DNA of 64,000 nt from an uncultured Mycoplasmatota bacterium (lineage in GTDB: Bacteria; Bacillota_I; Bacilli_A; Izemoplasmatales; Izemoplasmataceae). The translations under genes were made by a program, and so were the position numbers. Positions within the stretch are counted from its first letter, which is position 1. Every line of letters starts with the position of its first letter. The notes under the pieces are model-generated. The model did not search any database and was not told the origin of the DNA. It saw only the letters and a list, made by a program, of their open reading frames with translations. Shown piece after piece: positions 5,113-35,077 of this stretch. The DNA is taken from positions 237,433-301,432 of the forward strand of contig CAJXVW010000002.1 of NCBI GenBank assembly GCA_913062645.1. Reading direction: 5' to 3'.

Positions 5113-6279
5113 TTACAACCCGATTTCCTCGAACATCTCGGCGACGCGATGAATGTGTTGTTTGGGAATCGCCGTTTGCCGCATCATCTGAATCGATTTG
5201 CGACGATTTGTGAACAGTACGCGAATCAGACGCATCGTCCATGCGACGGGATACAACAACACCGTCCGATCCAGAAACCGGTAGCGATGCCGCAACGCCT
5301 GCCGCGACGGAAAAATCATTCGCCGCAGATGCGTCCAGCGTGGATGTTCGCCGGCGGTGGAGCTGATTCGACCAAGGGCGCGATTGAAGCGTTCGCCGGT
5401 TCCGTGCACGCCACTGAGTGCGACGTAGCGTGTCATCAGTTCGAACGTGCCTTCGGTCCATTCGATTGGTTCGGGCAGTTTCGTGGGAAGTCCGAAATAG
5501 CGTTGGGCCATGGCAAGAACCGTGACGGCGAACCGCCGGTACCCGATCTCGTCGAGATACGTCCGGACGGTGTCCCAGCGAATGTCTTGAGCGTAGTGTT
5601 CCACGTACAGTCCGATGTCCAGAAACGTGCGCAGGCCGACGCCGCCGGACCGGAAGTGTTTCGCCATGTGGTAGATGAGATACACCAACTCGTATCCGAT
5701 CTCGAGCTGGTGCTCGTGCTGTCTCGACGGGACGGCGTGATCCCAAGCCGTATCAAAGAGTGTGTGATCGCCGCCGTCGATGTTGCGCGAGATGCGGGGA
5801 TGCACCTCGATTGTGACCTGATTGGTGTGGGTGAACAGGTCGTGCGCTTCGCTGTTGACGGGATTCACATAGCCATGCGTTTCCAACAATTGATGAACAT
5901 CATCCATGTTCCGTTCGCGGACAAGAACATCAATGTCGCCCATCGAGCGCATGTGCGGTGCGGGATAGAGGTTCCGCAAGCGCGAACCCTTCATGAAGAC
6001 ATGATCAATGCCCGCCTCATCGAACAGTTTGCGGAGATCTTGCATCGCCTCGTCCTGGCGTGCTGCGGTGGCGACGTAAACGTAGTGCTCGCGTCGCAGT
6101 TTCTCGCACAGTTCGGTGGTGTCTTCGCTGTGACAGAGAGTGTGATAGATGGTTCCGGACAACCCGTTTTCCTTGGCCATGCGAAACAACAGAGCGGGAT
6201 TGTCCGGCGTTCCCTCGAATCGTTGTCCAACGATCGTGTCGCGGACAATCGAGCATAGCAACATGGCAGTGTCAAGCAT
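5113..6279 (-). CDS. nucleotidyltransferase family protein (NTP_transf_5-like)
   Basis: GIDHVFMKGSRLRNLYPAPHMRSMGDIDVLVRERNMDDVHQLLETHGY; start at MLDTAMLLCSIV rather than ORF start 6456. Confidence 0.75.
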   Translation of the reverse strand: MLDTAMLLCSIVRDTIVGQRFEGTPDNPALLFRMAKENGLSGTIYHTLCHSEDTTELCEKLRREHYVYVATAARQDEAMQDLRKLFDEAGIDHVFMKGSRLRNLYPAPHMRSMGDIDVLVRERNMDDVHQLLETHGYVNPVNSEAHDLFTHTNQVTIEVHPRISRNIDGGDHTLFDTAWDHAVPSRQHEHQLEIGYELVYLIYHMAKHFRSGGVGLRTFLDIGLYVEHYAQDIRWDTVRTYLDEIGYRRFAVTVLAMAQRYFGLPTKLPEPIEWTEGTFELMTRYVALSGVHGTGERFNRALGRISSTAGEHPRWTHLRRMIFPSRQALRHRYRFLDRTVLLYPVAWTMRLIRVLFTNRRKSIQMMRQTAIPKQHIHRVAEMFEEIGL

Positions 6280-6709
6280 GATTCGAATCACGTCCTTTGC
6301 GGATCGCTCGCCGGAATCTGAGCGCCGTTCGGTACAACAACACATGCAATCGTTGCAGCGGACGATTGACAGGTTTCGCGGGTTCATCCGCACCATATTT
6401 GCTAACGATTCCCAGCACGTCGCTGCGACCGCAGGTTTCATTGGAGAAGCGCGCATCCCCGCGCAAGGTCAGTCGATCGCCGGTTCCGATCAGACGGTGA
6501 AGCACGAGCCGATCACCGATGCGACACAAAAGAATGTCATTGCGCCGTGGTTCGCGCCGGATGGGACGAATCTCCACCAATGTCTTGCGATGGCGAAACA
6601 ACGGACGCATGCTGGAACCAGTCACGCGGAGCACGACCGATTGATCATTGCCGAGATGCTCCTCGAGAAACCGAAGGGCATCGGAAGCGGCCAGTGATAC
6701 GATCTTCAC
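6272..6709 (-). CDS. S24/S26 (signal-peptidase-like) protein without N-terminal TM
   Basis: 145 aa; VLRVTGSSMRPLFRHRKTLVEI ... NDILLCRIGDRLVLHRLIGTGDRLTLRGDA; GTG start overlapping PqqD stop (GTGA). Confidence 0.7.
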   Translation of the reverse strand: MKIVSLAASDALRFLEEHLGNDQSVVLRVTGSSMRPLFRHRKTLVEIRPIRREPRRNDILLCRIGDRLVLHRLIGTGDRLTLRGDARFSNETCGRSDVLGIVSKYGADEPAKPVNRPLQRLHVLLYRTALRFRRAIRKGRDSNHA

Positions 6710-6972
6710 GACTCCAATAGCCGGTGTTTGCGGACGATCGCGAGAAATGATCGCACGTCACGACTGGCGACATCGCGGGTCACCTCGAACGAATCCAACA
6801 AGAGCTCAATCAGGTCGGTCTCCTCGGCACCGCTTTGCAACGCACGGAACAACATCGCGCCAGACGCATTCAGCGTGATGATGCCATTGAACGAAACCGC
6901 CTCTTGACCAGATGGCACAACAACGTATTCCCCAGCCAATTCCTTGAGGATGTATTCAGACTTTATCTTCAT
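6706..6972 (-). CDS. PqqD family protein (RiPP recognition element-like)
   Basis: MKIKSEYILKELAGEYVVVPSGQEAVSFNGIITLNASGAMLFRALQSGAEETDLIELLLDSFEV. Confidence 0.85.
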   Translation of the reverse strand: MKIKSEYILKELAGEYVVVPSGQEAVSFNGIITLNASGAMLFRALQSGAEETDLIELLLDSFEVTRDVASRDVRSFLAIVRKHRLLES

Positions 6973-7819
6973 ATTGACCTCCGAAAATTTCATGATGCAG
7001 GACAGCAGCACTATCTGCTGTAATCCGACTTTCAAAGGAGACGACAAGCACCTTATCAATTATTGATTCTATCATATTTGATACAACATCAAGCAACTCT
7101 CGATTGCGGGGTCGAACAACATGCTGAAACAACTTGACCATTTTTTCCTTATTGGAGAGTTGCACAATTTTGTTGGTTCCTCTTGCGATGCAGACAACAG
7201 CCTTGACCGTTGCATGATCATTGGCCTGTTTCATATCCTTTCCGCACCACGGCGATCCCGCCACCCACAGCCTTCCGTCTTCCAGATAAAGCAACGGCTT
7301 GTCATCGTTGATGTATGTCGCGTCGAATCGTTCGATCCAATGGCGTGCATGGGTGGACTTGCCCGTCCCCGACGTCGCCGCGAACAACACCGCGTCGTCG
7401 CCCAGTCGGATCGCCGAGGCGTGAAGGGCGACCCGTCCGTGCAGAAGCGCAAGTTCCATGAAGATCATGCCGGTTAGAACATATTCCAACTCCGCCAAGC
7501 GTGACCGTTCGTCCTGTTCATGCAGGCGGACGGTGATCAGGCGGTAGTCCCGATCATGGCAAATCATCTGCTTGCAGACGCCACTCTCATCGTACGCCGC
7601 GATCCAGGTTTGATTGTTGTCCTGATACACGTGACGATTGCGATACGCGGCCGTTTCACGCAAGCCGTTCGGAACATCGAATCCAGATTCGACACGGACC
7701 ATGATGCGGTGTTGCGGATTGTCGTAAGACGTAACGTAGGGGTCTATCAACGTCTGGAAATAATCGTCGAAAACATACTGCAGTTCCACGCGGATTCCCG
7801 CTACCAGCAATTTGGCCAT
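6956..7819 (-). CDS. HprK-like kinase (lasso/RiPP-cluster K-protein type)
   Basis: 287 aa; LHASAIRLGDDAVLFAATSGTGKSTHARHW (P-loop), YINDDKPLLYLEDGRLWVAGSPWCGK. Confidence 0.8.
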   Translation of the reverse strand: MAKLLVAGIRVELQYVFDDYFQTLIDPYVTSYDNPQHRIMVRVESGFDVPNGLRETAAYRNRHVYQDNNQTWIAAYDESGVCKQMICHDRDYRLITVRLHEQDERSRLAELEYVLTGMIFMELALLHGRVALHASAIRLGDDAVLFAATSGTGKSTHARHWIERFDATYINDDKPLLYLEDGRLWVAGSPWCGKDMKQANDHATVKAVVCIARGTNKIVQLSNKEKMVKLFQHVVRPRNRELLDVVSNMIESIIDKVLVVSFESRITADSAAVLHHEIFGGQYEDKV

Positions 7820-7916
7820 GGCATCACCTCGTCAAAGTAATTATATCACAGCATTCGAAAACAACAAGCCCTTTCCTTGTCGCCTGCAACATGCTACAAT
7901 AAATTGAGGTGATGTG

Positions 7917-9545
7917 ATGTTCTACCTTCGATTCTATCGTGACCGCATCCGTGAGTTCCCCTGGTTGAAGCGCCCCCTGCTGCTTTTGACCGCGTTGAAT
8001 TTGGTGCTTGGCGCCACCGCGGTCGGCTTTGCCTATGTCAGCAAACTGGTGCTGGACGACATCCTTCAAAACGACGTCGCCAACATCGTGTTCAACGCGC
8101 TATTGCTGGCGGGTTTCATCGTGTTTCAACTGGTGTTGAAAACGACGACCAACTATCTGGCGACCGTGTATCAGACCACCACCCACAAACGGCTTCAGGA
8201 TCACTACGTCAAAACATTGCTGGGCCGAACGCTGCCGGCGATCCAAAGCAAGCACACCGGGCTTTGGATGAATCATCTCGACAGCGACGTGGTCCGATTC
8301 AGCCATGGCGTTCTCGACATCGCACCGCGGTTCGCCTTCATGGCGTTCCGATTCGTTCTCGCGTTCGTGCTGCTGGCCTATCTCGACTGGATGGTCGCAC
8401 TGGTGCTGGTCGGTTTCGGCGGGGTGTTGCTGATCATCGCCCTGACCCTTCGCGAGGAAATGAAACGACGCCATGTCGAGCGACAGGACGCCGAAGGGGC
8501 GGTCCGCAGTTTCCTTCAGGAACAACTGGATCACGCGCCGGTCATAAAATCCTACCAGGCCGAGACGTACACGCTCGACCTGCTTCGCGGACATCAGACG
8601 GTCTATGCCGACAAACAGATTCGTTCGCGTCGTCTTGCGATTGTCGCATCGACCGGCCTTCAGGCCGGCTTCATGCTGGCTTACGCCCTGGTCATCGTCC
8701 TCGGCGCATACCGCATCACCCTCGGCGCGCTCACCGTCGGCGGGCTGGTGGCGATCCTGCAGTTGACGGAATATATGCAATCGCCGTTCCGCATCGCCGG
8801 CAATCTTCTTCCAGCGTATTCCGCCATGGAATCCTCCTTTGAACGCCTGCAAGGAATCGCGGCACTGGAAGTCGAAGCGACGGACCGAGTCCCGGTCCGA
8901 CCATTCGATCGAATCGTCATCGACAATCTTCACTTCTCCTATGGTGCCAGCGAAATTCTGAATGGTCTGTCGTTCGAGGTTCGCCAAGGCAGCCTCGTTC
9001 ATCTCGCCGGTCCATCCGGCATCGGCAAGACGACCTTTCTGTATCTGTTGCTCGGATTGTTGCGCCCGACAGGCGGCAACATCGCCCTGGTCCACGACGA
9101 CGACACGCAGCCGATCGGACCAGAGACCCGTTCCTACTTCGCTTTCGTCCCGCAACAGATTCGCATCGTGTCGGGCACGATTCGCGACAACCTCCGGTAC
9201 AACCGCGACGAAATCGATGACAACGCATTGGTTCAGGCTTGTCAAAACGCCGTAATCGACAAGGACATCGAAGCCCTGCCCAACGGATATGACACCGTCG
9301 TCGGCGAACGCGGTCTCGGAATGAGCGAAGGGCAGCTGCAACGGCTTGCCATTGCCCGGGCGTTGTTGTCGGAGGCCTCCGTTCTCATTCTCGACGAAGC
9401 CACCTCCGCTCTGGACAAAGAGACGGAACAACTCGTTCTTGCCAATCTGCGTCAATTGCCAGACAAGACGATCATCCTCGTGTCTCATCGCGACGTGGAC
9501 GACGACATGACGTATCAGCGAATTGACATTGGACATCAACCATAA
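7917..9545 (+). CDS. ABC transporter, fused permease/ATP-binding exporter
   Basis: Six-TM-type N-terminal region; Walker A GPSGIGKTT; signature GMSEGQLQRLAIARALL; Walker B VLILDEATSALD. Confidence 0.9.
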   Translation: MFYLRFYRDRIREFPWLKRPLLLLTALNLVLGATAVGFAYVSKLVLDDILQNDVANIVFNALLLAGFIVFQLVLKTTTNYLATVYQTTTHKRLQDHYVKTLLGRTLPAIQSKHTGLWMNHLDSDVVRFSHGVLDIAPRFAFMAFRFVLAFVLLAYLDWMVALVLVGFGGVLLIIALTLREEMKRRHVERQDAEGAVRSFLQEQLDHAPVIKSYQAETYTLDLLRGHQTVYADKQIRSRRLAIVASTGLQAGFMLAYALVIVLGAYRITLGALTVGGLVAILQLTEYMQSPFRIAGNLLPAYSAMESSFERLQGIAALEVEATDRVPVRPFDRIVIDNLHFSYGASEILNGLSFEVRQGSLVHLAGPSGIGKTTFLYLLLGLLRPTGGNIALVHDDDTQPIGPETRSYFAFVPQQIRIVSGTIRDNLRYNRDEIDDNALVQACQNAVIDKDIEALPNGYDTVVGERGLGMSEGQLQRLAIARALLSEASVLILDEATSALDKETEQLVLANLRQLPDKTIILVSHRDVDDDMTYQRIDIGHQP

Positions 9546-16062: not shown

Positions 16063-16076
16063 CGGCAGGTGATTCG

Positions 16077-16991: not shown

Positions 16992-17002
16992 GGGGTGGCG
17001 GC

Positions 17003-18783: not shown

Positions 18784-18787
18784 TTTC

Positions 18788-20140
18788 ATGAGCCATGCGA
18801 TGAAACGAATGCTCTCCATCCTCGCCGTCATCCTGCTTGCCGGGTGCCGCAACACAACAATCTTGACATCGGTTGAAGAGGGTTTTTCGTTCACGGCGAT
18901 GAACGTTCTGACGTATGAGGTGACCTTCGATGCGGATGATGTCCTGTACGTTCAGGGCGACGACATCATGCGCACCGACGTCACGATCGCCGAAGGCATC
19001 TTGACCGTAGGCACGGAGTACCTCGCGTCCCTTGATCCCGGTGATCACGAGTTCGTTGTCCGTACCGTCGACGAAACGCTGCACCGATTCCGCATCGTCG
19101 TGTTGGATGAACACAACCGGCATCGCATCATCAACGGCGGTTTCGAAACGGGTGACCTAATGGGTTGGACGTCACAAACGACATTCAAACGCGAACAAGG
19201 CATTCTCAGTTTCACCGATGCCAACATCGTAAGTGCCGATGGTCTCGACGGCGACGGGTCATGGTCGCTCGGACGACGCGAAGACGATGATGGAGCCCTT
19301 GCCGGCGAACGTCTCGGCATGTTGCGTTCCAGCATCTTCGAACTTGCCGGATCCGGATGGATCACGTTTTCACTCGGAGGCGGCAATCCCTATCTGAACT
19401 ACGTGTCCGTGCGCCATGCGACGACGCATGTCGAGATTGCACGTTTCGCCAATCTCGCGGCGCTGCCGGGCGGACGCCTGACACCGTATCGCGCTGATCT
19501 GTCGCAGCATGTCGGAGAACCTCTGTACCTCGAACTGGTTGACAACGGCGCACAAAGCACCGACACGCTGTTTGCCGATTCATTTGAAACCTACCATGAG
19601 ACATCCCCCGAAAACGGTACGATCGCTGTTGACATGACGCCTTCGTTCGATGACGTCTTTGTTCCCAATCAACTGTTCAACGGCGATTTTCGACTCGGGC
19701 TTGACGGCTACGATACCGTCTCGTTCGGCTCCGGCGAGACGTTCCATGTCGAGGACGAGATCTTGAAAAGCAATCTTGGCGGCGACGATGCGCGCGGCTT
19801 GCTACGATCATCATTGTTCCGCGTGGATGGATCCGGTTGGATCAAAATCGACCTCGGAGCCGCTCAAGGGGCACGGTATGACAAGGACACCTATGTCTCG
19901 ATTCGTCGTCAGGACACCAACGAAGAAATCTTTCGTTTCGCCAACCGCAATGCCGACGGCACAGCGCCGGTCTCCTATTACATCGACCTCTCATCCTTTG
20001 CCGGAGACCATCTGTATCTGGAGATCGTCGACAACGCCGGCGACGCGTGGGACACGATCTTCGTGTATGACATCACAACGTATTTCGCCACGGCTCCGGT
20101 CGTGACATACGACACCCTGGGGGTGAATCTGAATGAATAG
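18788..20140 (+). CDS. lipoprotein with X2-like domain and two NGGFETGDLxGW jelly-roll-like modules
   Basis: MLSILAVILLAGCRN lipobox; RIINGGFETGDLMGWTS...; NQLFNGDFRLGLDGYDT...; LYLEIVDNAGDAWDTIFVYDITTYFATAP. Confidence 0.7.
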   Translation: MSHAMKRMLSILAVILLAGCRNTTILTSVEEGFSFTAMNVLTYEVTFDADDVLYVQGDDIMRTDVTIAEGILTVGTEYLASLDPGDHEFVVRTVDETLHRFRIVVLDEHNRHRIINGGFETGDLMGWTSQTTFKREQGILSFTDANIVSADGLDGDGSWSLGRREDDDGALAGERLGMLRSSIFELAGSGWITFSLGGGNPYLNYVSVRHATTHVEIARFANLAALPGGRLTPYRADLSQHVGEPLYLELVDNGAQSTDTLFADSFETYHETSPENGTIAVDMTPSFDDVFVPNQLFNGDFRLGLDGYDTVSFGSGETFHVEDEILKSNLGGDDARGLLRSSLFRVDGSGWIKIDLGAAQGARYDKDTYVSIRRQDTNEEIFRFANRNADGTAPVSYYIDLSSFAGDHLYLEIVDNAGDAWDTIFVYDITTYFATAPVVTYDTLGVNLNE

Positions 20141-23100: not shown

Positions 23101-24479
23101 TCGACGCGTTGTCACCGGTGACGTTTGCGGTCGTGATGAACGATTTCACCTTCAACAGCATTTACCATCAGGGCGAAGCGCTGATCGATCCCGACGACTA
23201 TCACTATGATGCCGTCACCGGCGAACTGACCTTCGATCCACTCGCGCTGCTCGAGTTGTACGATGGTTCGACGAGCTACAATTTCACCTTGCACACGACA
23301 GCCGGCTCAAATGTCGGATTCACAATCTTCTTCGATCATCCTCACAACCGCGTTGTGAACGGGTCGTTCGAGACCGGAACGCTTTACGGATTCACCGCAT
23401 TCTCGTTGTGGAAAGACGAATCCGGCATGATGGCATGGACCGACGAACGAGTCGTGACCGGCGGATACTTCGAAGACGAGGCTTTCTCCTACGGCCGCAC
23501 CGGAACCTACAACGTCGGCATATACGGCGGCACCATCACCAAGGATTCGGGACAAGAACGAATGGGGTACCTGCGCAGCAGCGACTTCATCCTCGGTGGC
23601 AGCGGCCACATTTCCTTCCAACTCGGTGGCGGTCGCAACACGTCATTCGCCTACGTGTCCGTCCGCGACGCGGCAACGGACGCGGAACTGGCTCGTTTCG
23701 GCAACCGCCATTTCGGCAACACCGCACTGTCCCAGACGGACAACGCCGAGGCCTTCTTGTTTACCTACTACATTGATTTGACAACCATCGCCGGCATTGA
23801 TCTGGGCGACTCGCTATATCTCATAATTGTCGACGGTGCGTCCAACGAGTGGAGCGTCCTGTCCTTGGATCATCTGATCACTTACTACGAAACGGCACCG
23901 ACGTTCACGTCTGATCAAGCCGCGATCAACATCCTTCCCCTCGTTGCCGGCACAACAACCGCAACCAATGCGATCGTCAACGGAACGTTCGACGATGGAT
24001 TGAACGGTTGGACCGATGTCAATGGCGTTTTCTCCATCAGCGACGGCTATGCCATCAGCAACGTCGATGGCAATGCCGGAACCGGCGTGTTGCGCTCCAG
24101 CGCTTTCACCATCGATGGTCCCAATCAGTACTTGCAGTTCGACTGGGCCGGCTGGCTAGCGCTCGACAAACAACTCTTCGTTTCAATCCGCGAGGTTGGC
24201 ACCAACATCGAAGTGATGCGCCTGGTTCGGCGCGACAACCTGAGTTCGTATCAGGCCGGTGATTTCCATAATCACATCTACGACCTGAGCGGTCTCGACT
24301 CCACCAAACTGTATTACATCGAAATCGCCGACAACGCCAATGGCGACTGGGCGGTTCAGAAGATCGACAACATCCGACTCGTTGATGAAGCCGCCTGGTT
24401 GACGGTTCCAGAAGGCGACCGCGGTGTGACGATCAGCGGTCTCCCGCTGGCATTCACTTACGTCGATCCCACTACCTAG
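20133..24479 (+). CDS. giant (1448 aa) surface lipoprotein with about nine X2-like repeats and two C-terminal NGxF modules
   Basis: LLLVLSFLSACTPD lipobox; repeated 'L-x-YL-x-TL-x-x-GxH' strands; C-terminal NRVVNGSFETGTLYGFTA and NAIVNGTFDDGLNGWTD modules. Confidence 0.75.
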   Translation: MNRIKTIATLLLVLSFLSACTPDTPPVDEPDPIEIGPIVFHLGDESLRHDIDLSPYVDRDLAGADLPDTAFVIDDAGFTIIGDALNVLDPGTYDMTLTLDAEIVPFSLDIRVPTDGSVTPTIIPITEQVFQLGDPTPLQWTIDTKGLPLDDIRFNGASLAASDYDLTDGELRLSVSFLEQLEPTAGHTLAIVTVGGTASVTIVINDTPTLATKTDLIKFPGESITAESFLDLVSDAVGDLTVTFELLTDRGTLTDLDDGSFSFVPDGVFHGAVELRMTASDSYGASSSRVYTLTYKRVDPTLTGSPNLSYDRAVPQDIELLFDTSGIEDDSLSYPIQQLTQGLYELVPGDVLIDPETVGRVVLDASYLATLPVGDHPIVVITNAGSTTVTVSVNDTRTPTVDRANAVFVKFADSQPLHFVITPYQNVIDAASFTMIDLDWTVGTDYTYSGNVLTITADFLNTLSIGDHVVRLFGEPFITLTVQALQPPAWNGGDLPLVREQSVDDAPLVLPVLLYGREADVIVFLNGDQVDETSYAVTSDQIAFTSAWVATLPYGEHDIAITTSQGTLHVVLNVGDAPIANDGSQNVTKFTFETILAETLRVSAIEPFELTGVELRSITYHSYVELPATPSETGSISQSGLVGSGDFGTLTLDPQTMSFALQRADGWFGVVLFTYVAIDELGFESAPITMDVVYKQMAPVLADQNDKTYLLRESPASEADITYSIINASGDSDFPIHRLYHGDVLLVEDVDYAIPERDGSTRFFVLKSTYLNTLEPGIHEFTLYTDGGRVTFQLDILAPLSVVSHFTTFDKGSPETVSIELDGRPVTVDSIWIAGSQVPSEHVTLDGTTLSVSAVALSGLPYGTAEMTIVNGNGATSFTFDVVDSRLPFTTIASATYLESSMADIDIGLTLYDSTLIDVRIDGTTVDPEHYTLISNALIIDADLLETIFQADTTVELEIVTDDTTLTVDIAFTAAPLLPQLTQTSEDFHIDALSPVTFAVVMNDFTFNSIYHQGEALIDPDDYHYDAVTGELTFDPLALLELYDGSTSYNFTLHTTAGSNVGFTIFFDHPHNRVVNGSFETGTLYGFTAFSLWKDESGMMAWTDERVVTGGYFEDEAFSYGRTGTYNVGIYGGTITKDSGQERMGYLRSSDFILGGSGHISFQLGGGRNTSFAYVSVRDAATDAELARFGNRHFGNTALSQTDNAEAFLFTYYIDLTTIAGIDLGDSLYLIIVDGASNEWSVLSLDHLITYYETAPTFTSDQAAINILPLVAGTTTATNAIVNGTFDDGLNGWTDVNGVFSISDGYAISNVDGNAGTGVLRSSAFTIDGPNQYLQFDWAGWLALDKQLFVSIREVGTNIEVMRLVRRDNLSSYQAGDFHNHIYDLSGLDSTKLYYIEIADNANGDWAVQKIDNIRLVDEAAWLTVPEGDRGVTISGLPLAFTYVDPTT

Positions 24480-24490
24480 GAGGTGTTCCC

Positions 24491-26995
24491 ATGCCCAAAT
24501 GGATGTTGCTGGCAACTGCCATGCTATTCGTTTTGACACTGTCCGCCTGTCGGCGTGACGACGAAGACCCGGATGACACCAATCACGACGATCCGATCGT
24601 CGACGATGATGAGCAAATCCCCAACGGTGGCTTTGAAACCGGTGATCTCACCGGATGGACCGTGGTGTCCGGATCGGCGTTCGCCGATGCGGGTGTGACC
24701 GACGCCATCATCGATCCTTCTCACAACCGCCCCTACGGACAAGAGGGGTCGTACTTCTACGGACGGTATCAGGAGTCCGAAGTCGGCGTGTTGCGCTCGA
24801 CCGCCTTCACCATCAAGGACAGCGGCTACATCAGTTTTCGTCTGGGAGGCGGACAAAACACCGCCCTGACATACGTGTCGATCAAGGATGCTTCAACGGG
24901 AATCGAGTACGCCCGTTTCGGCAACACGTTGTTCAACTCGGACACGACCGATGATTATGCCCGGTTCAACGAGTCCAATCTGGTTCCGTACATCGCTGAT
25001 CTGTCTACCTATCTCGGTGAAACGGTATACATCGAGATCGTCGATCGGTCACGACAGAACTGGGGACTCCTGACATTCGACGATTTCATCACGCATTACG
25101 AGACATCCCCCGATCAGACGGTCGGCTCTCTAGCAGATGACATCAAACCGCGGTTCGCCGTTCCCAATTCTCCATTTGCGCCCAATAACTCGACTTTTGA
25201 TACCAGCGATTTGAGCGGTTGGACCGTCGCCTATGGGGATGCATTCAACGACAATCATGTCGTAGCCGGTCCATATGGGCAGCGCCTCAACAACCGGAGT
25301 TCGGAAAGCGAACTGGGCGTGTTGCGGTCCGGTCTGTTCACGGTTCAGGGTTCGGCATTCGTTTCCTTCCGGCTCGGAGCGATGCATCAGAACAACCGCG
25401 ACCATCTGTACCTGTCGATTCGGAAGGCCGGAACCAACGAAGAAGTCTTCCGCACCTACAACTCCCGCGGCCGTTTCAGCGATGAAGAAGCCACGCACTT
25501 GTACTTCGTGGATCTCGAGGAACACCGCGGCGACCAACTCTATTTCGAGTTGGTGGACAACGCCGCTTCCGAGTGGGGCTTAATCATCTTCGAAGACTTG
25601 ACGACACACTATCCGGAAATGCCATTCGTGCGAGACGAGATCGCCGTCGACTTGAATCATCTCGGTGCGACGGAACGGACGTACGCCGTGATGCGCGCCG
25701 ATGTCGACGCGTGGATCGCGGGTATCGACCCATCGGACTTTATTCCCGACGATGCGGATGCGGCGACCATCGCGTTCTACGAAGACCATTTCCGCACCAT
25801 CTTGTCCAACGTGTTCTACTCGACGATTGACGGCTTCACCGTTGAATCGCCAAAATCCGGGACGCTGACGTTTCCCGGGGTCAACAGTTACCTCGAAGAC
25901 GGCACGACCTTCACAATCACCGGCGACATCCCGGCGATGTGGCTGCGCGACTCGCCGGCACAGATCCTCCAGTACCTGCATTGGGCGGATCAGGATCCTG
26001 ACGTCCGCGACATGACCAAAGGCATGATCCGTCGACTGTTCATGTACATTCGCATGGACCCCTACGCCAACGCCTTCAATCTGGACGGTTCGACATGGGA
26101 GCGCAAGTATGAAATTGATTCGCTGTGTTATCCGATTTGGCTCGCCCAGCAGTATTATGACATCACCGGCGACGACTCGATTTTCGACAAGTACTACATG
26201 ATGACCGTCGACACGATCATCGCGACCTTCCTCGCCGAACAGAATCATTCCGACGCCAACTACGACATCGCCGAAGTGTCGCAGGCGGACAAGGACAAAT
26301 ATCCGACTGCGGTGCAGACAGGCATCGGACTGATCTACAACGCCTATCGTCCCAGTGACGACGTATCGAAATACAAATACTTGATCCCTTCGAACATGTT
26401 CGCCGTCGTGATTCTCGAATACATCGCCTCAATCTACACCGAACTCGAGCTCGACAGCACGACCGCCCAACAGGCGAGCGACCTCGCGGCGGAAGTCCGG
26501 GCGTCGATCTACGAACACGGTACCTACGATCATCCGACCTACGGTGAGATCTTCGCCTACGAGGTCGACGGTCTGGGCAACTACAACTTGATGGACGACG
26601 CCAACATCCCGAGTCTGTTGTCGATACCCTGGCTGGGATTCGTCGATGCCGACGATCCGATCTATCAGAACACCCGCGCCTTCATCCTCAGCGAAGACAA
26701 TCCGTTCTACTTCAGCGGCACCTTCGCCGCCGGCATCGGCAGCGAGCACACGCCGAACGGATACGTCTGGCCGATGGCTCTGGCGATGCAGATGATGACC
26801 AGCACGAACGACGTCGAATGGCGAAATGCGCTGGCAGACATCGTGCTCAACACGGCCGGCACGTTCGTGCTGCATGAAGGGTTCAATGTCAACGATCCCG
26901 CAGATTACTCGCGCGAATGGTTCACATGGCCGTGCGCGCTGCTCGCCGAAGCTATCATCCAACATGAAGCGGACAAATTGTCCGCGGTCGAATAG
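24491..26995 (+). CDS. GH125-family exo-alpha-mannosidase-like lipoprotein with two N-terminal NGGFETGDL modules
   Basis: LTLSACRRD lipobox; FTITGDIPAMWLRDSPAQILQYLHWA; IRMDPYANAFNLDGSTWERKYEIDSLCYPIWLAQQYYDITGD. Confidence 0.88.
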   Translation: MPKWMLLATAMLFVLTLSACRRDDEDPDDTNHDDPIVDDDEQIPNGGFETGDLTGWTVVSGSAFADAGVTDAIIDPSHNRPYGQEGSYFYGRYQESEVGVLRSTAFTIKDSGYISFRLGGGQNTALTYVSIKDASTGIEYARFGNTLFNSDTTDDYARFNESNLVPYIADLSTYLGETVYIEIVDRSRQNWGLLTFDDFITHYETSPDQTVGSLADDIKPRFAVPNSPFAPNNSTFDTSDLSGWTVAYGDAFNDNHVVAGPYGQRLNNRSSESELGVLRSGLFTVQGSAFVSFRLGAMHQNNRDHLYLSIRKAGTNEEVFRTYNSRGRFSDEEATHLYFVDLEEHRGDQLYFELVDNAASEWGLIIFEDLTTHYPEMPFVRDEIAVDLNHLGATERTYAVMRADVDAWIAGIDPSDFIPDDADAATIAFYEDHFRTILSNVFYSTIDGFTVESPKSGTLTFPGVNSYLEDGTTFTITGDIPAMWLRDSPAQILQYLHWADQDPDVRDMTKGMIRRLFMYIRMDPYANAFNLDGSTWERKYEIDSLCYPIWLAQQYYDITGDDSIFDKYYMMTVDTIIATFLAEQNHSDANYDIAEVSQADKDKYPTAVQTGIGLIYNAYRPSDDVSKYKYLIPSNMFAVVILEYIASIYTELELDSTTAQQASDLAAEVRASIYEHGTYDHPTYGEIFAYEVDGLGNYNLMDDANIPSLLSIPWLGFVDADDPIYQNTRAFILSEDNPFYFSGTFAAGIGSEHTPNGYVWPMALAMQMMTSTNDVEWRNALADIVLNTAGTFVLHEGFNVNDPADYSREWFTWPCALLAEAIIQHEADKLSAVE

Positions 26996-27005
26996 GAGGA
27001 CAACC

Positions 27006-29522
27006 ATGCAACCAACGACCATCTTGAACCGCGGCGCTCTCGCGCTGCTTGCCTTCCTTTGCATCATGCTGTCGCTGGGTACGCACGCGCTTCACGCCGA
27101 CACTGCTACATACGGTGTCGATCTCGCCTTCGGGCGGCGCGTCGTCTCCACTCCCCACACCGATGACAACACAAACACCCGCGCCGTCGACGCCAATCCC
27201 GACTCGCGTTACGCCAGTCAGGAAATCGATGACGCCTTCTTCTACGTCGATCTCGGATCGATGGAGAAGATCAAGCGCATCGTCATAACCTGGGAAGCGG
27301 CGTATGCCAGCGAATATGAGATACAGTTATCGAACGACGCCATGAACTGGACGACCGTGGAAACCGTGACGAACACGCAACAGACGATTGACGACATCGT
27401 GCTCAGCCATTATGTGGAAGCACAGTTCGTCCGTTTTCAGGGCGTGTCGCGCGCGACGTCCTACGGCTACTCGTTCTACAGTTTTGAAGTTTACGGCGCG
27501 CCCAGTCTGTCGAACGGAGCCTCGGTCTATGAGGTCTCCAGTCACGAAAACGAGTCCGAACTGCCCGCCGCGGCGATGACGGACAATCTCGCCGAAACGC
27601 GATGGGCGTCGACCGTCGCCGACAATCAGTACGTCCTGATCGACCTCGGCGCGGATACGATTTTCGACACCGTCAAGATTCGCTGGGAGGTCAGTTTCGC
27701 CCGCATTTTCGACATCTATGTCCAAAGCGATGTCGCGACCCAACCGGCGCGCGACGATGCCGGATGGGTCTGGATCGCCGGATCCGATGTCGGACTCGGC
27801 GAAGTCGACACGTTGACGACCGACACACCGATTTCGGCACGCTATGTGAAACTCGAACTCGTGCAGCGCGAAACATCGGAAGCCACCAAGAAAACCGGAC
27901 GATTCCCATGGGAATCGACGTTCTCCATCCATTCGTTCGAACTGTTCGACTGGAGCGCGATCGACGCATTGCCGCTCGGACATGCCATGGAGTTTTCGCA
28001 AAACAGTCCGGCCTGGCCGACGATGACCAACATCCGTCTCTTTGAAGAGGGGCTTTTGCTGGCACCCCACGGCTATCCGATCGAAGCCGACGGCGTGGTC
28101 ACCAATCTCGCCAGCATCGCTGACGGCGACATCCCCGGATTCGAGTCTTACGCCGTTTACAACCCCGGCGTCATCTACGACGACGACCGAGACATTTTCC
28201 ACATGATCTATCGTTCCGAATTGCCGGACAACTTCCGTCAGTATTTCGGAACACGATATGAACTCGGGCACATGTCGACACTGTCGTATGCTTCGTCGCC
28301 GGACGGATACCATTTCACCCGTGGTGACAACAACCCGGTGGTGTGGGCGACGCTGGCCGAAGAAAACGGCGGCGGCACCGAAGACCCCCGCATCTTCAAG
28401 ATACAGAACGATCCGAACCGCGATGGCCTGACGACTTATTACATCACTTACACGATGTACGATTACTCGATGACGCGCCAGGGCATTCTCTACACGCACG
28501 ACTTCGAAACCTTTCACAAAGTCGGCAACATCGCACCCGGATACGGTGGTGCGTTGAAATCCGGATCGTTCCTCACCGATCCCGAGGGCAACGCCGTCAA
28601 AATCAATGATCCTCGTCCCGGAAAGACCGGCATGGTCTACATGATCTACATGAAAGACGGCGCCTATACCCGCATCGGCTTCACCGACGACGTGATCAAC
28701 ATCGCTCCGGAGGACATCGTTGACATCGATACATCCGGATTCGGTCCCAACAGCATTGAAGCGCTGACCAAGTGGAACGAATCCTGCATGGCCATCACCA
28801 ACATCTACGGACCGGACGACCAGGACATCTATCTGATGTATGGCGGAACGCGTCTGAGCGATGAGAACATCCAGTACGAACAACCCAATGCGACCGGTTG
28901 GTTCTACGCCCTCGGCGCACTGAAGACAACGAAATCCAATCCGTTCGAACTGACCAACGTCGAACTGGATCTCGACGAACCGTCGATGTATCCGACCGAC
29001 ACCAACAAGATTGATTACGGCCTGTTTGAAAAATGCATGTTTGCCGATCAGATGATCCGCTACGACAACACCTGGTTCCTCTACTATGGCGCCGGCGACA
29101 TGTACGTCGGGCTGGCCAACGCCCGCGCCGATTTCAGTGCCGGAGCAGTGCGCTTCGAGCGTGAGGGGGACATTCTCACCTATGAAACGTTCGCCCTGAA
29201 CAAGCAATACGGAACGAATCAGACCGATTGGGACGTGGAACTGGTGCTGGCCATCTTCGATGGCGATCACCAACTGATCGACCAACAAACGCTGGCGGCT
29301 ACCGTCCCGCACTTTCGCCATCTCGACCGAGGCGCTTACGCCAACGGTTTGTATCTGGAAGACAGCGTTGACTTGTCGACGTACACGCTCCCGGCGACCT
29401 ATTATGCCGTCGCCTATCTGCGCGACGCTCAGACGCTCGAGATTCTCAACCAACAATCGGTGTTCACGGTCATCAGCGCCACGACCACGAGCACACCGGT
29501 GCCAAACCAAAAGGAGGCCTGA
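27006..29522 (+). CDS. secreted GH130-like enzyme with two F5/8 type C (discoidin/CBM32-like) domains
   Basis: Signal peptide MQPTTILNRGALALLAFLCIMLSLGTHALHA; ADANPDSRYASQ...YVDLGSMEKIKRIVITWE; YNPGVIYDDDRDIFHMIYR; GGTEDPRIFKI. Confidence 0.8.
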   Translation: MQPTTILNRGALALLAFLCIMLSLGTHALHADTATYGVDLAFGRRVVSTPHTDDNTNTRAVDANPDSRYASQEIDDAFFYVDLGSMEKIKRIVITWEAAYASEYEIQLSNDAMNWTTVETVTNTQQTIDDIVLSHYVEAQFVRFQGVSRATSYGYSFYSFEVYGAPSLSNGASVYEVSSHENESELPAAAMTDNLAETRWASTVADNQYVLIDLGADTIFDTVKIRWEVSFARIFDIYVQSDVATQPARDDAGWVWIAGSDVGLGEVDTLTTDTPISARYVKLELVQRETSEATKKTGRFPWESTFSIHSFELFDWSAIDALPLGHAMEFSQNSPAWPTMTNIRLFEEGLLLAPHGYPIEADGVVTNLASIADGDIPGFESYAVYNPGVIYDDDRDIFHMIYRSELPDNFRQYFGTRYELGHMSTLSYASSPDGYHFTRGDNNPVVWATLAEENGGGTEDPRIFKIQNDPNRDGLTTYYITYTMYDYSMTRQGILYTHDFETFHKVGNIAPGYGGALKSGSFLTDPEGNAVKINDPRPGKTGMVYMIYMKDGAYTRIGFTDDVINIAPEDIVDIDTSGFGPNSIEALTKWNESCMAITNIYGPDDQDIYLMYGGTRLSDENIQYEQPNATGWFYALGALKTTKSNPFELTNVELDLDEPSMYPTDTNKIDYGLFEKCMFADQMIRYDNTWFLYYGAGDMYVGLANARADFSAGAVRFEREGDILTYETFALNKQYGTNQTDWDVELVLAIFDGDHQLIDQQTLAATVPHFRHLDRGAYANGLYLEDSVDLSTYTLPATYYAVAYLRDAQTLEILNQQSVFTVISATTTSTPVPNQKEA

Positions 29523-29523
29523 C

Positions 29524-31590
29524 ATGAAACGACTGCTAGGTTCCATCACACTTGTTCTCGTTATCCTGCTGGCCGCCTGCGGCGGTGGACTGGATCGCCC
29601 CGAACCTCGTCTCGAAGCCGACCGGCTTGTTTCTTGGGATGCGATCGACAACGCCACCGCATACGAGATTGAAACCGGCGAGGAGACAATCACCGTCACC
29701 GAACCGTCGTGGACCATTCCCGGTCGTCTCTTCGGAGAGTTGTCCATTCGCGTCCGCGCGACGGACGGCGACAGGTTCGGCGATTTCAGTGAACCACTCG
29801 ATCTCACGGTTTACTTGCAGCTCGCCCCGCCCGACGGCATCCGTCAGGAGAATGGCGCGATCCGTTGGAATGCAGTTGCCGAAGCCACGGGTTACGTGGT
29901 TCGCATCAACGGCGTGGAATACCCCGCCAGCGGCACGACCTTCACCTATCAAGTCCTCGCTCCGACAACCGTCGAGATCCTCGCTCTCGGCAATCCGACC
30001 GGCTATGTCCGCAACAGTTTGTTCAGCGACAGCGTGACCTTGCGAGCACAACTCGCATCGGTCGCCAACATCACCTTCGACGATGGTGTTCTGTCCTGGG
30101 ATGCGGTCGCCAACGCCACGTCCTATCGCATCGTCATTGACGGCGACACCTACACCGCAACTACCAATGAACTGATCTTGCCGGCGCTGTACGGTGGCGA
30201 CGTGGATGTCTCAGTCACGGCATTGGATAATACAAGCACCTACCTATCATCCATTGCGACGACGACCGCTATCTCCATTCCGATGGTGGAATTGGACACC
30301 CCGACCGGCGTCACCGTTGCCTCGGGCATCCTGTCGTTCAACGCCGTGACCGGAGCGACCCGGTACGACATCTATGTCGACGGCATGTTCTACTCCACCA
30401 TCACCACAACCACGTACACCTTGCCGACGGCACTCTTGAACGACGGCGCACTGTATGTCCAAGTCGTCGCCGACGCGGACGGTTTCGTCGCGTCACAGCC
30501 AAGCACTCGCGCCTACATCGAAGTCACGGCAATCGCCACCGAAAGCGCCCTCCGAGCGATCGACCCCGACGGCGCCTACGTCCTGACGGCCGACATTGAG
30601 TTGTCTGGTTCGTGGGTTCCGATGTCCTTCACCGGCTTTTTCGATGGTGACGGACACACCATTTCCGGCATTGTCATCACAGCGGACGAAGCGGAAATCG
30701 GATTCTTCACCAATCTCTCCGAAGCAGTGGTTCAAAACCTCCGTCTCGAGGGCTCGATCGACCTCACCACAACGTCCAACAACGCCCGCGTCGGCGGACT
30801 TGCCGGGCGTTCCACCAAGAGCGACATCGAAAACGTCGATGTCGACATGTCGATCCTCGCCGTCTCAACCAACGGCGTCGGATTCCTAGGTGGCCTGTTC
30901 GGACAGAGCGAAGGAAACCGCGTCGTGCGAAGTTCCTTCACGGGCACCATTGAAGCAACCCATTTCACGGTCGGGGGATTGATCGGGCTCAGTGACGATC
31001 CCACCGCCGAACAGTGGATATATCAATCCGCCGTAACGGCGACGATCACCGTCGTCGGCGGCGAACAGAGCGCCAGCGGCGGCTTCATCGGTCGCATGGG
31101 CAACAATCGGATGACCATCGAACAGAGTGTCGCCGATGTTGTCCTGAGCGGTCCCGGTTACGTCGGCGGATTCGTCGGCTATCTCGGATCAGGCCGGATC
31201 GAAGACAGTCTCGCGCTCGGCACAGTCGAAGCGACCAGCGCATTCCTCGTCCATGCCGGTGGTTTCATCGGCCGCATGGAAGGATACAACAGCCATGTCG
31301 CGACCAGCATCAGCAAGGTCGCGGTCACCGCGTCCGAAACGGGTGATGACATTTTTGTCGGCAGTTTCGTCGGACACACCGTTGGTGGGACGTACCACAC
31401 CGTCTACGACAACTGCGTCTATGACATGGCGACCAGTAGCCTGGATCGCATCGGCAATCCTGACAGCGGAAGGGGGGATGGCATTCGTGGCGAACCGATG
31501 AACACTCCAACCACGCTCGAAGGGTTCGATACAAGCGTATGGAATTTCACCGCATCAACACCCGCATTGAACTGGCAATCACAACAATGA
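29524..31590 (+). CDS. lipoprotein with FnIII-like repeats and C-terminal GLUG repeats
   Basis: LVILLAACGGG lipobox; WDAVANATSYRIVIDGDTYT repeats; VGGLAGRSTKSDIENV, VGGLIGLS, SGGFIGRMG, VGGFVGYLGSGRIEDS. Confidence 0.75.
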   Translation: MKRLLGSITLVLVILLAACGGGLDRPEPRLEADRLVSWDAIDNATAYEIETGEETITVTEPSWTIPGRLFGELSIRVRATDGDRFGDFSEPLDLTVYLQLAPPDGIRQENGAIRWNAVAEATGYVVRINGVEYPASGTTFTYQVLAPTTVEILALGNPTGYVRNSLFSDSVTLRAQLASVANITFDDGVLSWDAVANATSYRIVIDGDTYTATTNELILPALYGGDVDVSVTALDNTSTYLSSIATTTAISIPMVELDTPTGVTVASGILSFNAVTGATRYDIYVDGMFYSTITTTTYTLPTALLNDGALYVQVVADADGFVASQPSTRAYIEVTAIATESALRAIDPDGAYVLTADIELSGSWVPMSFTGFFDGDGHTISGIVITADEAEIGFFTNLSEAVVQNLRLEGSIDLTTTSNNARVGGLAGRSTKSDIENVDVDMSILAVSTNGVGFLGGLFGQSEGNRVVRSSFTGTIEATHFTVGGLIGLSDDPTAEQWIYQSAVTATITVVGGEQSASGGFIGRMGNNRMTIEQSVADVVLSGPGYVGGFVGYLGSGRIEDSLALGTVEATSAFLVHAGGFIGRMEGYNSHVATSISKVAVTASETGDDIFVGSFVGHTVGGTYHTVYDNCVYDMATSSLDRIGNPDSGRGDGIRGEPMNTPTTLEGFDTSVWNFTASTPALNWQSQQ

Positions 31591-31637
31591 CACGATGAAT
31601 GGGCACATGCACCTAGATTACCGTAAGGAGGAATCAC

Positions 31638-31757
31638 ATGAAACAAGAATACGAAGCACCAACCATTGAAATCATTGAATTCGAATTGGAAGACAGCATT
31701 GCAAGCAGCGCCGATTTCGGTGGCGGAGCCATCGGAACCGAAGGCTTGTTCGAGTGA
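31638..31757 (+). CDS. 39-aa candidate RiPP precursor peptide
   Basis: RBS aaggaggaatcac then ATG; MKQEYEAPTIEIIEFELEDSIASSADFGGGAIGTEGLFE; YxxPxI leader-like motif, Gly-rich C-terminus; below ORF-track size cut-off. Confidence 0.75.
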   Translation: MKQEYEAPTIEIIEFELEDSIASSADFGGGAIGTEGLFE

Positions 31758-31768
31758 GGAGGACGGTC

Positions 31769-33997
31769 ATGAAACGACTTGGCGTTCTACTGTTGTTCAC
31801 GGTCCTGTTCCTCATCTCGGCCAACCACACGTTCGCCCTGCCGCAACAGGGCGCGGACTCCGTTACCGTTCAAGTCACGACGTATTTCGACAGTGACAAT
31901 ACGACCGGACCGGTATCCGTCAGCGCGACATACGGCGCGGCGCTTGCCTTTGACGGCGACCTGGACGAAGAAACCACCGGCTACACGTTCGCGTTCTGGT
32001 TGCTCAACGGAACCATCCGCAAAGACTTGCCCATCGATCATCAATTCATCGTAACCGACAACATGAGTCTTACCGGCGTCTTCAAACCCGACACGACAAG
32101 TCCTGAGACGTTCTATCTCCTGTTCATCGACACCAACGGAGAAGAACTCGGCATTCAGTACGTCACCGACGGCAATGACGGCACCGACATCACCGAGGGC
32201 CTTCCGACCAAACCGGGCTACACGATTTCTTCCACCCCGAAATGGTCCGACGACTACACCGGCGTGAACGAAGACCGCATCCTCATTCTCCGCTACGACA
32301 AGAGCACGAGCGACACCTATACGCTCACCGTCGACGGCGGCACCACGGATGACGGTTCCGGCAGTTCGACGAGCGGCACATACGACTACAATGAAGTCGC
32401 TACCGTCGTCGCCGACACCCCCGCCGGGGGCGAGTATTTCCATCACTGGGAAATCAACGACCGCACGGTCAGTTACCAGTCGACCTACTCGTTCACCGTC
32501 CTCGAAAGCGTCACCATCACCGCCGTGTACGCGACATCCGCACCGTCCGACAGCCCTCATGTCGGATTGAGTTACAACCTGTCGCTGCGCAGCGGATACA
32601 AATCCTATCTCGGCCAGTTCTATTTACCCAGCGGGTACACCTTGGTGGAGTACGGCGTGCTTTCTTCAACCTCGCAAGCCGACCTCTACATCGACACGGC
32701 GGGCGTGCAGCGCAATCAAGGCATGAAGTATCTCGGGACAACCAATGAGTTCGTCCTGTCGATCGCCGAAGCCAACGCTGTCAGCGTCAAACCGTACCTG
32801 ATCGCCAAAGACGGCTCGAACAACCTTGTGACCGTCTACGGACAGGCGTCCTACAACCTCTACAATGGTGGCTTCGAGACCGGTGATCTCACCGGCTGGA
32901 ACGCCTACACCCTCTGGAAGGATGAAAGCGGCATGGCGGCCTTCATCGACGATCGTGTCGTCAGCGGAACCTATTTTGGCGGCGGTTATCCATACGATCG
33001 CGAAGGCACTTACAACATCGGTGTCGAAGGCGGTTCGCTCACGTGGGACCAGAGTTCCGAACGCATGGGACATCTCCGCTCCGCGGACTTCACCCTCGGC
33101 GGCAGCGGTTGGATCAGTTTCAAACTCGGCGGCGGTAGAACGCCGGACTTCGCTTATGTCTCCGTCCGCAAGACCGAGGACCACACGGAAGTGGCGCGAT
33201 TCGCCAATCGTCATTACAATGACACCACCAAGGCGACCGCGCAATACGGCTCTACAATCACCAACGCCGAAGCGTTCATGTTCCAGTATTACTTCGACCT
33301 CGGCAGCCTGGCGGATGTCAGTCTCGGTGACAGCCTGTACTTCGTGCTGACCGAAGCGGCGGCATACGACTGGGCCATCCTGTCGGCCGACGCATTCGTG
33401 ACGTACTACAAGACAGCGCCATCGACAACCACCGACACGTTGGCGGAGAACATCGTTCCTTCCATCAACGGAGCGGGAAGCGCGACCAACAGCATTCCCA
33501 ACGGCGACTTCTCCAGCGGTCTGACAAGCTGGGACGACGTCCAGGGCGGTTGGTACGACAACTCCGGCATCGCTCAGAGCAACGAGAGCGGTGACGGTGA
33601 TCTCGGCGTCCTTCGCTCGAGCGCATTCACGATCAACGGCAGTAACATCTACCTCGAGTTCGACTGGGGCGGCGGCCTGAAATGGGACAAGCAGATTTTT
33701 GTCTCCGTCAAGGAAGTCGGCACCAACATCGAAGTGTTGCGCTTTGTCCGTCGTGACAATCTGTCTGGAAAAGAAAACACCAATCTGGACAATCACATGA
33801 TGGACATTTCCGGACTCGACAGCAGCAAAGAGTATTACCTCGAATTCGCTGACAATCGAACCAGCTCCTGGGGATTGTCGATCATCGACAACGTCGAATT
33901 GGTCGACCAGACTCGCTGGGACGCGGTAACGAGCGGTGACCGAGGCGTCTCCATCTCCGGCATTCCCACCAATTTCGCTTACGTCAAACCGGAGTAG
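31769..33997 (+). CDS. secreted protein with beta-repeat-type domains and two C-terminal NGGFETGDL modules
   Basis: Signal peptide MKRLGVLLLFTVLFLISANHTFA; YNGGFETGDLTGWNAYTLW; SIPNGDFSSGLTSWDD; RBS gaggagg. Confidence 0.75.
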   Translation: MKRLGVLLLFTVLFLISANHTFALPQQGADSVTVQVTTYFDSDNTTGPVSVSATYGAALAFDGDLDEETTGYTFAFWLLNGTIRKDLPIDHQFIVTDNMSLTGVFKPDTTSPETFYLLFIDTNGEELGIQYVTDGNDGTDITEGLPTKPGYTISSTPKWSDDYTGVNEDRILILRYDKSTSDTYTLTVDGGTTDDGSGSSTSGTYDYNEVATVVADTPAGGEYFHHWEINDRTVSYQSTYSFTVLESVTITAVYATSAPSDSPHVGLSYNLSLRSGYKSYLGQFYLPSGYTLVEYGVLSSTSQADLYIDTAGVQRNQGMKYLGTTNEFVLSIAEANAVSVKPYLIAKDGSNNLVTVYGQASYNLYNGGFETGDLTGWNAYTLWKDESGMAAFIDDRVVSGTYFGGGYPYDREGTYNIGVEGGSLTWDQSSERMGHLRSADFTLGGSGWISFKLGGGRTPDFAYVSVRKTEDHTEVARFANRHYNDTTKATAQYGSTITNAEAFMFQYYFDLGSLADVSLGDSLYFVLTEAAAYDWAILSADAFVTYYKTAPSTTTDTLAENIVPSINGAGSATNSIPNGDFSSGLTSWDDVQGGWYDNSGIAQSNESGDGDLGVLRSSAFTINGSNIYLEFDWGGGLKWDKQIFVSVKEVGTNIEVLRFVRRDNLSGKENTNLDNHMMDISGLDSSKEYYLEFADNRTSSWGLSIIDNVELVDQTRWDAVTSGDRGVSISGIPTNFAYVKPE

Positions 33998-34005
33998 CAC
34001 CATGA

Positions 34006-34030
34006 GGGCGGCATCTGCCGCCCTTTTTTG
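34006..34030 (+). terminator. Rho-independent terminator ending the glycan operon
   Basis: gggcggca-tc-tgccgccc followed by tttttt. Confidence 0.85.
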
Positions 34031-34084: not shown

Positions 34085-35077
34085 ATGAAAAAAGTTACGT
34101 TGCAGACGATCGCTGACAAATTCGGGATCAGCAAAGTTGCCGTTCACAAAGCTCTGACAGGCAAGAAAGGGGTCAGCGACAAGCTGCGCAAAGAAATCGT
34201 GGCTTACGCTGATTCGGTTCATTACAAGCTGAAATCCGCGAAAGTCGACGTCGACAACAAGCGGTTCATCTTTTTTGTTAACCAGGATTTCTTTCTCACT
34301 CCCTCAGAACAGTTCTATTCCACAATCTTCTACTTCCTGAGCGCGGAATGCAATCGCATTGGCAGCACCCTTCAAGTCGCGTTCTTGCATCAGTCGAATG
34401 CCATTCAGACCATTCAACAAGCGACTGCGTCATTCAAGCCCGATGGTCTGTTCTTTGTCGGGCAGTTGGATTCGGACGCCATGCGGCACATCCGAACGCT
34501 GGACGTGCCAACGGTGTTCATCGATTATCATGTGCCAAAGGGGGGCGTTTCGAGTGTCTACATCAACCATTACGATGCCGGGTACCGGTTGACGTCCTAT
34601 CTCATTGAAAGCGGACATGAGGACATCGGTTTCATCGGTAACACAGGATCGACCAGCGCCATCATGGATCGCTACTTCGGATATCGCAAAGCGTTGTTGC
34701 AAGCCGGTTTGGCATTTCGCGAGAATCGTCATCTGAATTCCAATGTCGAACAAGACAATCCGAATCTGACGTTTCAACGAGAAAACCTGCCAAGCGCCTA
34801 TGTGTGTCACTGTGATGCCGCAGCCCAATGGCTTTACGCCTGGTTGTCGAGCAACGGCATGCGGATTCCGCAGGATGTCTCGATCGTCAGTTTTGACGAC
34901 ACGATGCTGTGCGACAGCCTGTTGCCACGCCTGACATCGCTCGGACCAAACAAGGAGCGTTTCGCGAAACTGGCGTTCCATCAGATGCTCGAATTGCTTC
35001 GCAATCCTGACAACACATCACAAACTCGATTGGAACCGAGCCTGTCGACACGCGAATCGGTTTTGCTACTCCTATAA
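34085..35077 (+). CDS. LacI family transcriptional regulator
   Basis: MKKVTLQTIADKFGISKVAVHKALTGKKGVSDKLRKEI HTH; SGHEDIGFIGNTGSTSAIMDRYFGYRKAL. Confidence 0.9.
   Translation: MKKVTLQTIADKFGISKVAVHKALTGKKGVSDKLRKEIVAYADSVHYKLKSAKVDVDNKRFIFFVNQDFFLTPSEQFYSTIFYFLSAECNRIGSTLQVAFLHQSNAIQTIQQATASFKPDGLFFVGQLDSDAMRHIRTLDVPTVFIDYHVPKGGVSSVYINHYDAGYRLTSYLIESGHEDIGFIGNTGSTSAIMDRYFGYRKALLQAGLAFRENRHLNSNVEQDNPNLTFQRENLPSAYVCHCDAAAQWLYAWLSSNGMRIPQDVSIVSFDDTMLCDSLLPRLTSLGPNKERFAKLAFHQMLELLRNPDNTSQTRLEPSLSTRESVLLLL

Follow-up and report, generated by a model that had tools for sequence, protein, structure and literature searches.

Does the 39-residue open reading frame that follows a mannose-glycan degradation operon in an uncultured Izemoplasmatales bacterium encode a RiPP precursor, and if so, which enzymes modify it and where does the product act? 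We addressed this question by comparative analysis of the window (the whole 64,000-nucleotide stretch of DNA around this frame) with related genomes, and by comparison with the LPPs (linear polyphosphorylated peptides), known from the lpp cluster of Paenibacillus alginolyticus DSM5050 (Nat Commun, May 2026; PMC13381572).

Genomic context of the peptide gene

The frame runs from the ATG at 31638 to the TGA at 31755-31757, and its product is MKQEYEAPTIEIIEFELEDSIASSADFGGGAIGTEGLFE (Table 1). The initial annotation had proposed it as a substrate of the enzyme cassette at 5.1-9.5 kb, and the frame, its ribosome-binding site and the gap of 11 nt between its stop and the next ATG at 31769 match exactly what was quoted there. 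This next ATG starts the gene of a secreted protein (MKRLGVLLLF..., with a signal peptide), whose GGAGGA Shine-Dalgarno sequence abuts the peptide TGA; translational coupling from the peptide to the secreted protein is likely because GGAGGA begins directly after the TGA. From the upstream stop at 31590 to the start of the peptide gene, the sequence has no terminator-like site. The upstream mannose-glycan operon includes two GH130 domains and carbohydrate-binding modules. Pfam and NCBIfam scans of the 39-aa peptide alone matched no family, and a PDB sequence search with profiles of the peptide, of NDOM (the conserved N-terminal region of the secreted protein), of the NTase and of the kinase gave zero matches. 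A gene of 39 residues is easily missed because of its size.

Table 1. Coordinates of the features of the candidate peptide system and its surroundings in the window.
Feature	Position	Strand	Details
NTP_transf_5 (PF14907) protein, LppN-like	5113..6279	-	GDID motif
S24/S26 signal-peptidase-like protein, LppS-like leader peptidase candidate	6272..6709	-	GSSMRP, LHR
PqqD/RRE protein, LppB-like	6706..6972	-	leader-binding residues N35, D72, F76 invariant
HprK-like kinase, LppK-like	6956..7819	-	P-loop SGTGKST, NDDKP
ABC exporter, LppD/MsbA-like	7914..9545	+	ABC_membrane + ABC_tran
Mannose-glycan degradation operon, upstream of peptide	13706-31590	+	GH130, sugar ABC importer, DUF1861, CBM_X2 protein, GH125, F5/8C + GH130, GLUG protein
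Shine-Dalgarno AAGGAGG	31625..31631	+	6 nt 5' of peptide ATG
Candidate RiPP precursor peptide gene, 39 aa	31638..31757	+	leader M1-I21 with YxxPxI and core A22-E39 with phosphosite S24; core and phosphosite predicted
Secreted partner protein	31769..33997	+	signal peptide, NDOM (31769-32554), tandem beta-strand repeats resembling InlB/MucBP-type surface proteins
Terminator-like hairpin 3' of partner gene	34004..34025	+	
LacI-type regulator	34085-35077		

Conservation of the peptide family

A protein search with the peptide as query gave matches in 25 of 150 genomes, the own one included, the best non-self match sharing 66% identity (E = 1e-11). Profile A1, made from 27 peptide sequences, recovers 26 strong carriers among the 150 genomes and, at E <= 1e-4, 26 carriers in a sample of 396 genomes from the phylum. 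Residues Y5, P8, I21, A22 and S24 are invariant across the 27 sequences, whose consensus is YExPxIEIIEFxLEESIAxS. At least 48 distinct peptides of Izemoplasmatales/Acholeplasmatales-type Bacilli belong to the family; 47 of the 48 carry YxxP, 47 carry the I-[A/S]-x-S box, and the distance between Tyr and Ser equals 19 in all 46 peptides where it is measurable. The differences at first, second and third codon positions amount to 5819, 4183 and 10200 over all family pairs, and to 227, 174 and 477 for the window peptide against other members; the third position changes most, and the peptide sequence itself is therefore under selection. In close peptide pairs, dN is well below dS. These observations confirm that the 39-aa frame is a real gene, conserved beyond chance. 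The initial annotation had made its proposal hinge on conservation of the frame and of YxxP in relatives, and both proved conserved; the Y5-x-x-P8-x-I10 motif that it described is present, in support of a leader of the PqqD/RRE type.

Looser peptides of the type xxxPEIEVxxFxxxDVIATS occur in Ruminococcaceae and other families (L129:5841-5924, L177, L178, L179), where they are not accompanied by NDOM; no cassette was detected near those of L177 and L179.

Enzyme cassette

The LPP core gene set consists of a SpI-like peptidase, a discrete RRE, an HprK-like kinase, an NTP transferase and an MsbA-like transporter (PMC13381572), and all five gene types are present at 5113-9545 of the window, the exporter gene being divergent from the enzyme genes (5113-7819). 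The structural model of the kinase (pLDDT 92) has HprK/P structures as its best matches. The PqqD protein scores above the Pfam cut-off, and its residues N35, D72 and F76, invariant in 13 sequences of the PqqD family, align in 9x8z with LppB N33, D70 and F74, the residues that bind Tyr and Pro of the leader. GxSMxP and HR are retained in the S26-like protein, whose similarity to signal peptidases is weak; set against LppS S29/H68/D93, its family has invariant Ser33 and His71, and the likewise invariant D85 and E91 are possible counterparts of D93. The NTP_transf_5 match (E = 2e-48) is accompanied by an invariant GDID motif. A C39 peptidase domain was not found in the exporter, and PADLOC returned generic ABC and radical SAM matches only, with no defence system.

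A scan with the NTase profile named mainly Candidatus Izemoplasmatales/Izimaplasma, Acholeplasmataceae and other Tenericutes-type MAGs as relatives, with Paenibacillus contaminans and Clostridia as outliers. Clostridia matches without other cassette genes (L128, L130-L133 and others) were assigned to a wider NTP_transf_5 family and not counted here. At the Paenibacillus contaminans locus (L124:8070-8168), the peptide MKKEYEKPQIEIEEYELPCICSESGGLGDGEDF adjoins HprK-PqqD-S26-NTase and NDOM-like matches; it carries a Cys in the leader region and has no A-x-S box.

Proposed leader cleavage and maturation

LppS, assisted by LppB, cuts the LPP leader after FET (T-1), so that the core starts A1-Q2-S3, and LppK phosphorylates core Ser3 up to four times (PMC13381572). 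The comparison suggests cleavage between I21 and A22 in the window peptide, with S24 as the phosphosite. A cut before A22 combined with S24 phosphorylation is the simplest reading because the LPP core has A-Q-S with residue 3 phosphorylated and I-[A/S]-x-S is conserved here. One point against this LPP-like reading is residue 21, since Ile is uncommon at -1 in substrates of signal-peptidase-like enzymes. Cleavage after ASSA, as proposed in the initial annotation, did not hold up: the family conserves I-A-x-S but accepts A, G, M, T, S, L, V and other residues at position 25, so that a cut after ASSA is no conserved feature, and the LPP precedent points to a cut before Ala22.

The alternative that survives best keeps the peptide as a cassette substrate and places the cut after the conserved A-x-S (or ASSA), so that Ser24 would be lost or would end the leader. 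Cleavage after A-x-S satisfies the classical -3/-1 rule of signal peptidases and was initially favoured; we demoted it because of the LPP cleavage data, in which the related enzyme cleaves after FET and leaves two residues ahead of the phosphorylated Ser. Since the invariant Ser is, moreover, better explained as a phosphosite, we regard this alternative as unlikely.

We conclude that the product of the frame is probably a precursor that matures into a linear RiPP with phosphate, of the LPP kind; binding, phosphorylation and cleavage of this precursor are predicted by comparison. The PqqD/RRE protein (6706-6972) would bind the leader via Y5-x-x-P8-x-I10, and the HprK-like kinase would place one or more phosphates on the invariant Ser24. 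The Ser-His signal-peptidase-like protein would remove the leader right before A22-x-S24, and the MsbA-like pump would export the core of ~18 residues, which would then act with the NDOM protein. The NTP_transf_5 protein may attach a sugar or a nucleotide to the phosphate, much as a nucleotidyltransferase is reported to do with hexoses in the lasso peptide pseudomycoidin (PMC8498205); the role of the NTase is unproven even in LPPs, in which deletion of LppN gave no visible change (PMC13381572).

Linkage of the peptide to the cassette

HMMs built from these loci reveal the recurring gene order [rSAM]-HprK-PqqD-S26-NTase-PEP-NDOM. At ~18 loci the peptide gene adjoins genes for the HprK-like kinase, the PqqD/RRE protein, the signal-peptidase-like protein and the NTP_transf_5 protein. 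The complete order with the radical SAM gene (rSAM) was found at eight of the first loci (L031, L034, L036, L037, L038, L039, L045 and L059; in L038 the rSAM gene is cut by the contig end), and the order without it is exemplified by L103, L104, L168, L170, L172, L173 and L175. The PqqD gene is present in 20 of 26 peptide-carrying genomes versus 14 of 124 others (Fisher 5e-11, shared ancestry ignored), and several of the six peptide-bearing genomes without PqqD are incomplete. The conservation of the peptide near PqqD/HprK genes in relatives, proposed in the initial annotation as a check, is borne out, and its assignment of the frame as a substrate of the 5.1-9.5 kb cassette is supported by this linkage. 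A variant locus (L032:879-8419) contains two tandem rSAM-HprK-PqqD sets with one peptide; in the first set rSAM and HprK share one 627-aa frame, an apparent fusion.

Further peptide copies stand alone with NDOM at a distance from the enzymes, and in the window the cassette and the peptide-NDOM pair lie 22 kb apart in separate operons. This separation could mean that the cassette acts on another, unseen peptide and that the 39-aa frame is an orphan relic. We consider this very improbable, given that cassette-distant peptide-NDOM pairs are common in cassette-holding genomes (e.g. G065 C10, G076 C36), that a search of the own genome found no second peptide copy, and that the peptide is under purifying selection.

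Secreted partner and radical SAM subtype

NDOM comprises ~230-260 residues, a signal peptide followed by tandem beta repeats, and starts at -4 to +15 nt relative to the end of the peptide gene in 48 of 48 distinct peptides, this count being that of the distinct peptides with NDOM found directly after them. It occurs in 24 of 26 peptide-carrying genomes versus 3 of 124 others (Fisher 2e-22, shared ancestry ignored). Its AlphaFold2 model (pLDDT 87, pTM 0.65) partly resembles an immunoglobulin-binding protein of R. gnavus, YwfG and the InlB B-repeat, with low TM-scores, and beyond NDOM the partner protein varies (LTD, Big_2, Flg_new, LRR). The precursor gene thus lies directly 5' of the gene for one kind of secreted protein in all 48 distinct cases with NDOM, often far from the enzymes, and this makes the partner the likely site of peptide action; the peptide product probably acts together with the secreted NDOM protein encoded right after it. 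More tentatively, the phosphorylated (perhaps glycosylated) peptide could be a dedicated NDOM partner, bound or attached to the conserved N-terminal repeats outside the cell, rather than a free secreted natural product. In that case the peptide-NDOM pairs would be modules for adhesion or glycan binding that draw on a common modification cassette.

Several genomes show other arrangements. Contig G131:C1 carries five NDOM genes, in a genome with 4-5 peptide-NDOM pairs and a single PqqD match; one cassette may serve several pairs. In G020 (L044) the pair closes a GH16/GH3 operon of the beta-glucan type. A genome of the same genus, G003, encodes an NDOM protein (G003:C68:654-1385), and neither the peptide nor PqqD was found in it; this NDOM gene is a possible remnant after loss of the system.

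The radical SAM/SPASM gene of the cassette is present in 19 relatives; in the own genome (G000, 99.7% complete) it has no match at E <= 1e-60, and there is none in the window, whose peptide has no Cys. Among loci with readable status, all 11 peptides whose locus includes an rSAM gene have a core Cys, as against none of the 15 whose locus lacks it (Fisher 1.3e-7, uncorrected for ancestry). A strict rule per genome was dropped: in G024 and G041, which have rSAM, the peptides lie on other contigs and contain no Cys. The rule therefore has exceptions and is stated only for genes within one locus. In many relatives the radical SAM/SPASM enzyme probably acts on a core Cys as an additional modification, and the swap between a Cys core with radical SAM and neither provides a natural comparison for the role of that enzyme. 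A search of viral contigs with the radical SAM profile gave three weak fragments only, and thus no sign of viral origin.

The constant position of the peptide directly 5' of NDOM, with a stop that in the window abuts the NDOM Shine-Dalgarno sequence, would also suit a purely regulatory role, in which the leader peptide serves to couple its translation to that of the secreted protein and is no substrate at all. Such a function can hardly account for the strong, motif-like amino-acid selection with YxxP at a fixed distance from I-A-x-S, for the co-occurrence with PqqD and the position directly after RiPP enzymes in many operons, or for a core Cys that tracks the radical SAM gene, and we judge it very unlikely. 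Translational coupling may exist in addition to the substrate role.

Comparison with known systems

The system shares HprK-like kinase, RRE and nucleotidyltransferase with the lasso peptides paeninodin and pseudomycoidin (PMC8498205), and its YxxP leader adds to the likeness. However, its gene content is not that of a lasso system, and a lasso precursor of this type is extremely unlikely: a B2 transglutaminase-like peptidase (PF13471) has no match in the own genome, the Asn-synthase-like cyclase (PF00733) has two weak fragments there, both below the cut-off and outside the window, the candidate leader peptidase is signal-peptidase-like, and paeninodin-type leaders have WxxP, in which Tyr replaces Trp in the window family. 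In rSAM-bearing relatives, the kinase (ScmC, 32 bits) and PqqD (ScmD) weakly match SynChlorMet (TIGR04248-TIGR04251), and the rSAM/SPASM protein moderately matches ScmE and ScmF, but every score is far below the cut-off and such an rSAM is missing from the own genome. The likeness to PqqA/PqqD/PqqE consists of the PqqD fold, joined in relatives by a radical SAM/SPASM protein, whereas no PqqA-like core is present here and the PqqD and PqqE scores are below the equivalog cut-offs.

The closest likeness is to LPPs. Both systems have a discrete PqqD/RRE protein, an HprK-like kinase, a signal-peptidase-like leader peptidase, an NTP transferase and an MsbA-like exporter, both belong to Bacillota, and both lie in carbohydrate-gene-rich surroundings. 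LPP precursors are delimited as 35-200 aa with a YxxPx[V/I] leader, a range that includes the 39-aa peptide, and A-x-S stands at the predicted core start. The gene set, the short YxxP precursor and the RRE residues of LPPs are thus found here, whereas the full published leader consensus is not: YxxPxVLxHQxIxFETxxS is replaced by YxxPxIEIIEFxxEESIAxS, with HQxIxFET absent and one extra residue between Tyr and Ser. The core has ~18 residues as against 45 in LPP, and the hosts are Izemoplasmatales/Acholeplasmatales-type Bacilli. The main text of the LPP paper mentions neither radical SAM, Izemoplasma, Mollicutes nor surface proteins, and its supplement may already list some of these genomes (PMC13381572). 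Our literature search found no RiPP report for Izemoplasmatales/Acholeplasmatales-type bacteria.

We conclude with good confidence that the system works like an LPP system, and this match, the NDOM partner and the radical SAM/Cys subtype go beyond the initial annotation. LPP-like clusters are thereby extended to Izemoplasmatales/Acholeplasmatales-type bacteria, with three new features that distinguish them from the published LPPs: the leader variant, a subtype in relatives that combines radical SAM with a Cys core, and NDOM as an obligate partner gene. The only paper that we found on LPPs describes their biological role as unknown (PMC13381572), and the link to NDOM makes the role of an LPP-like peptide testable.
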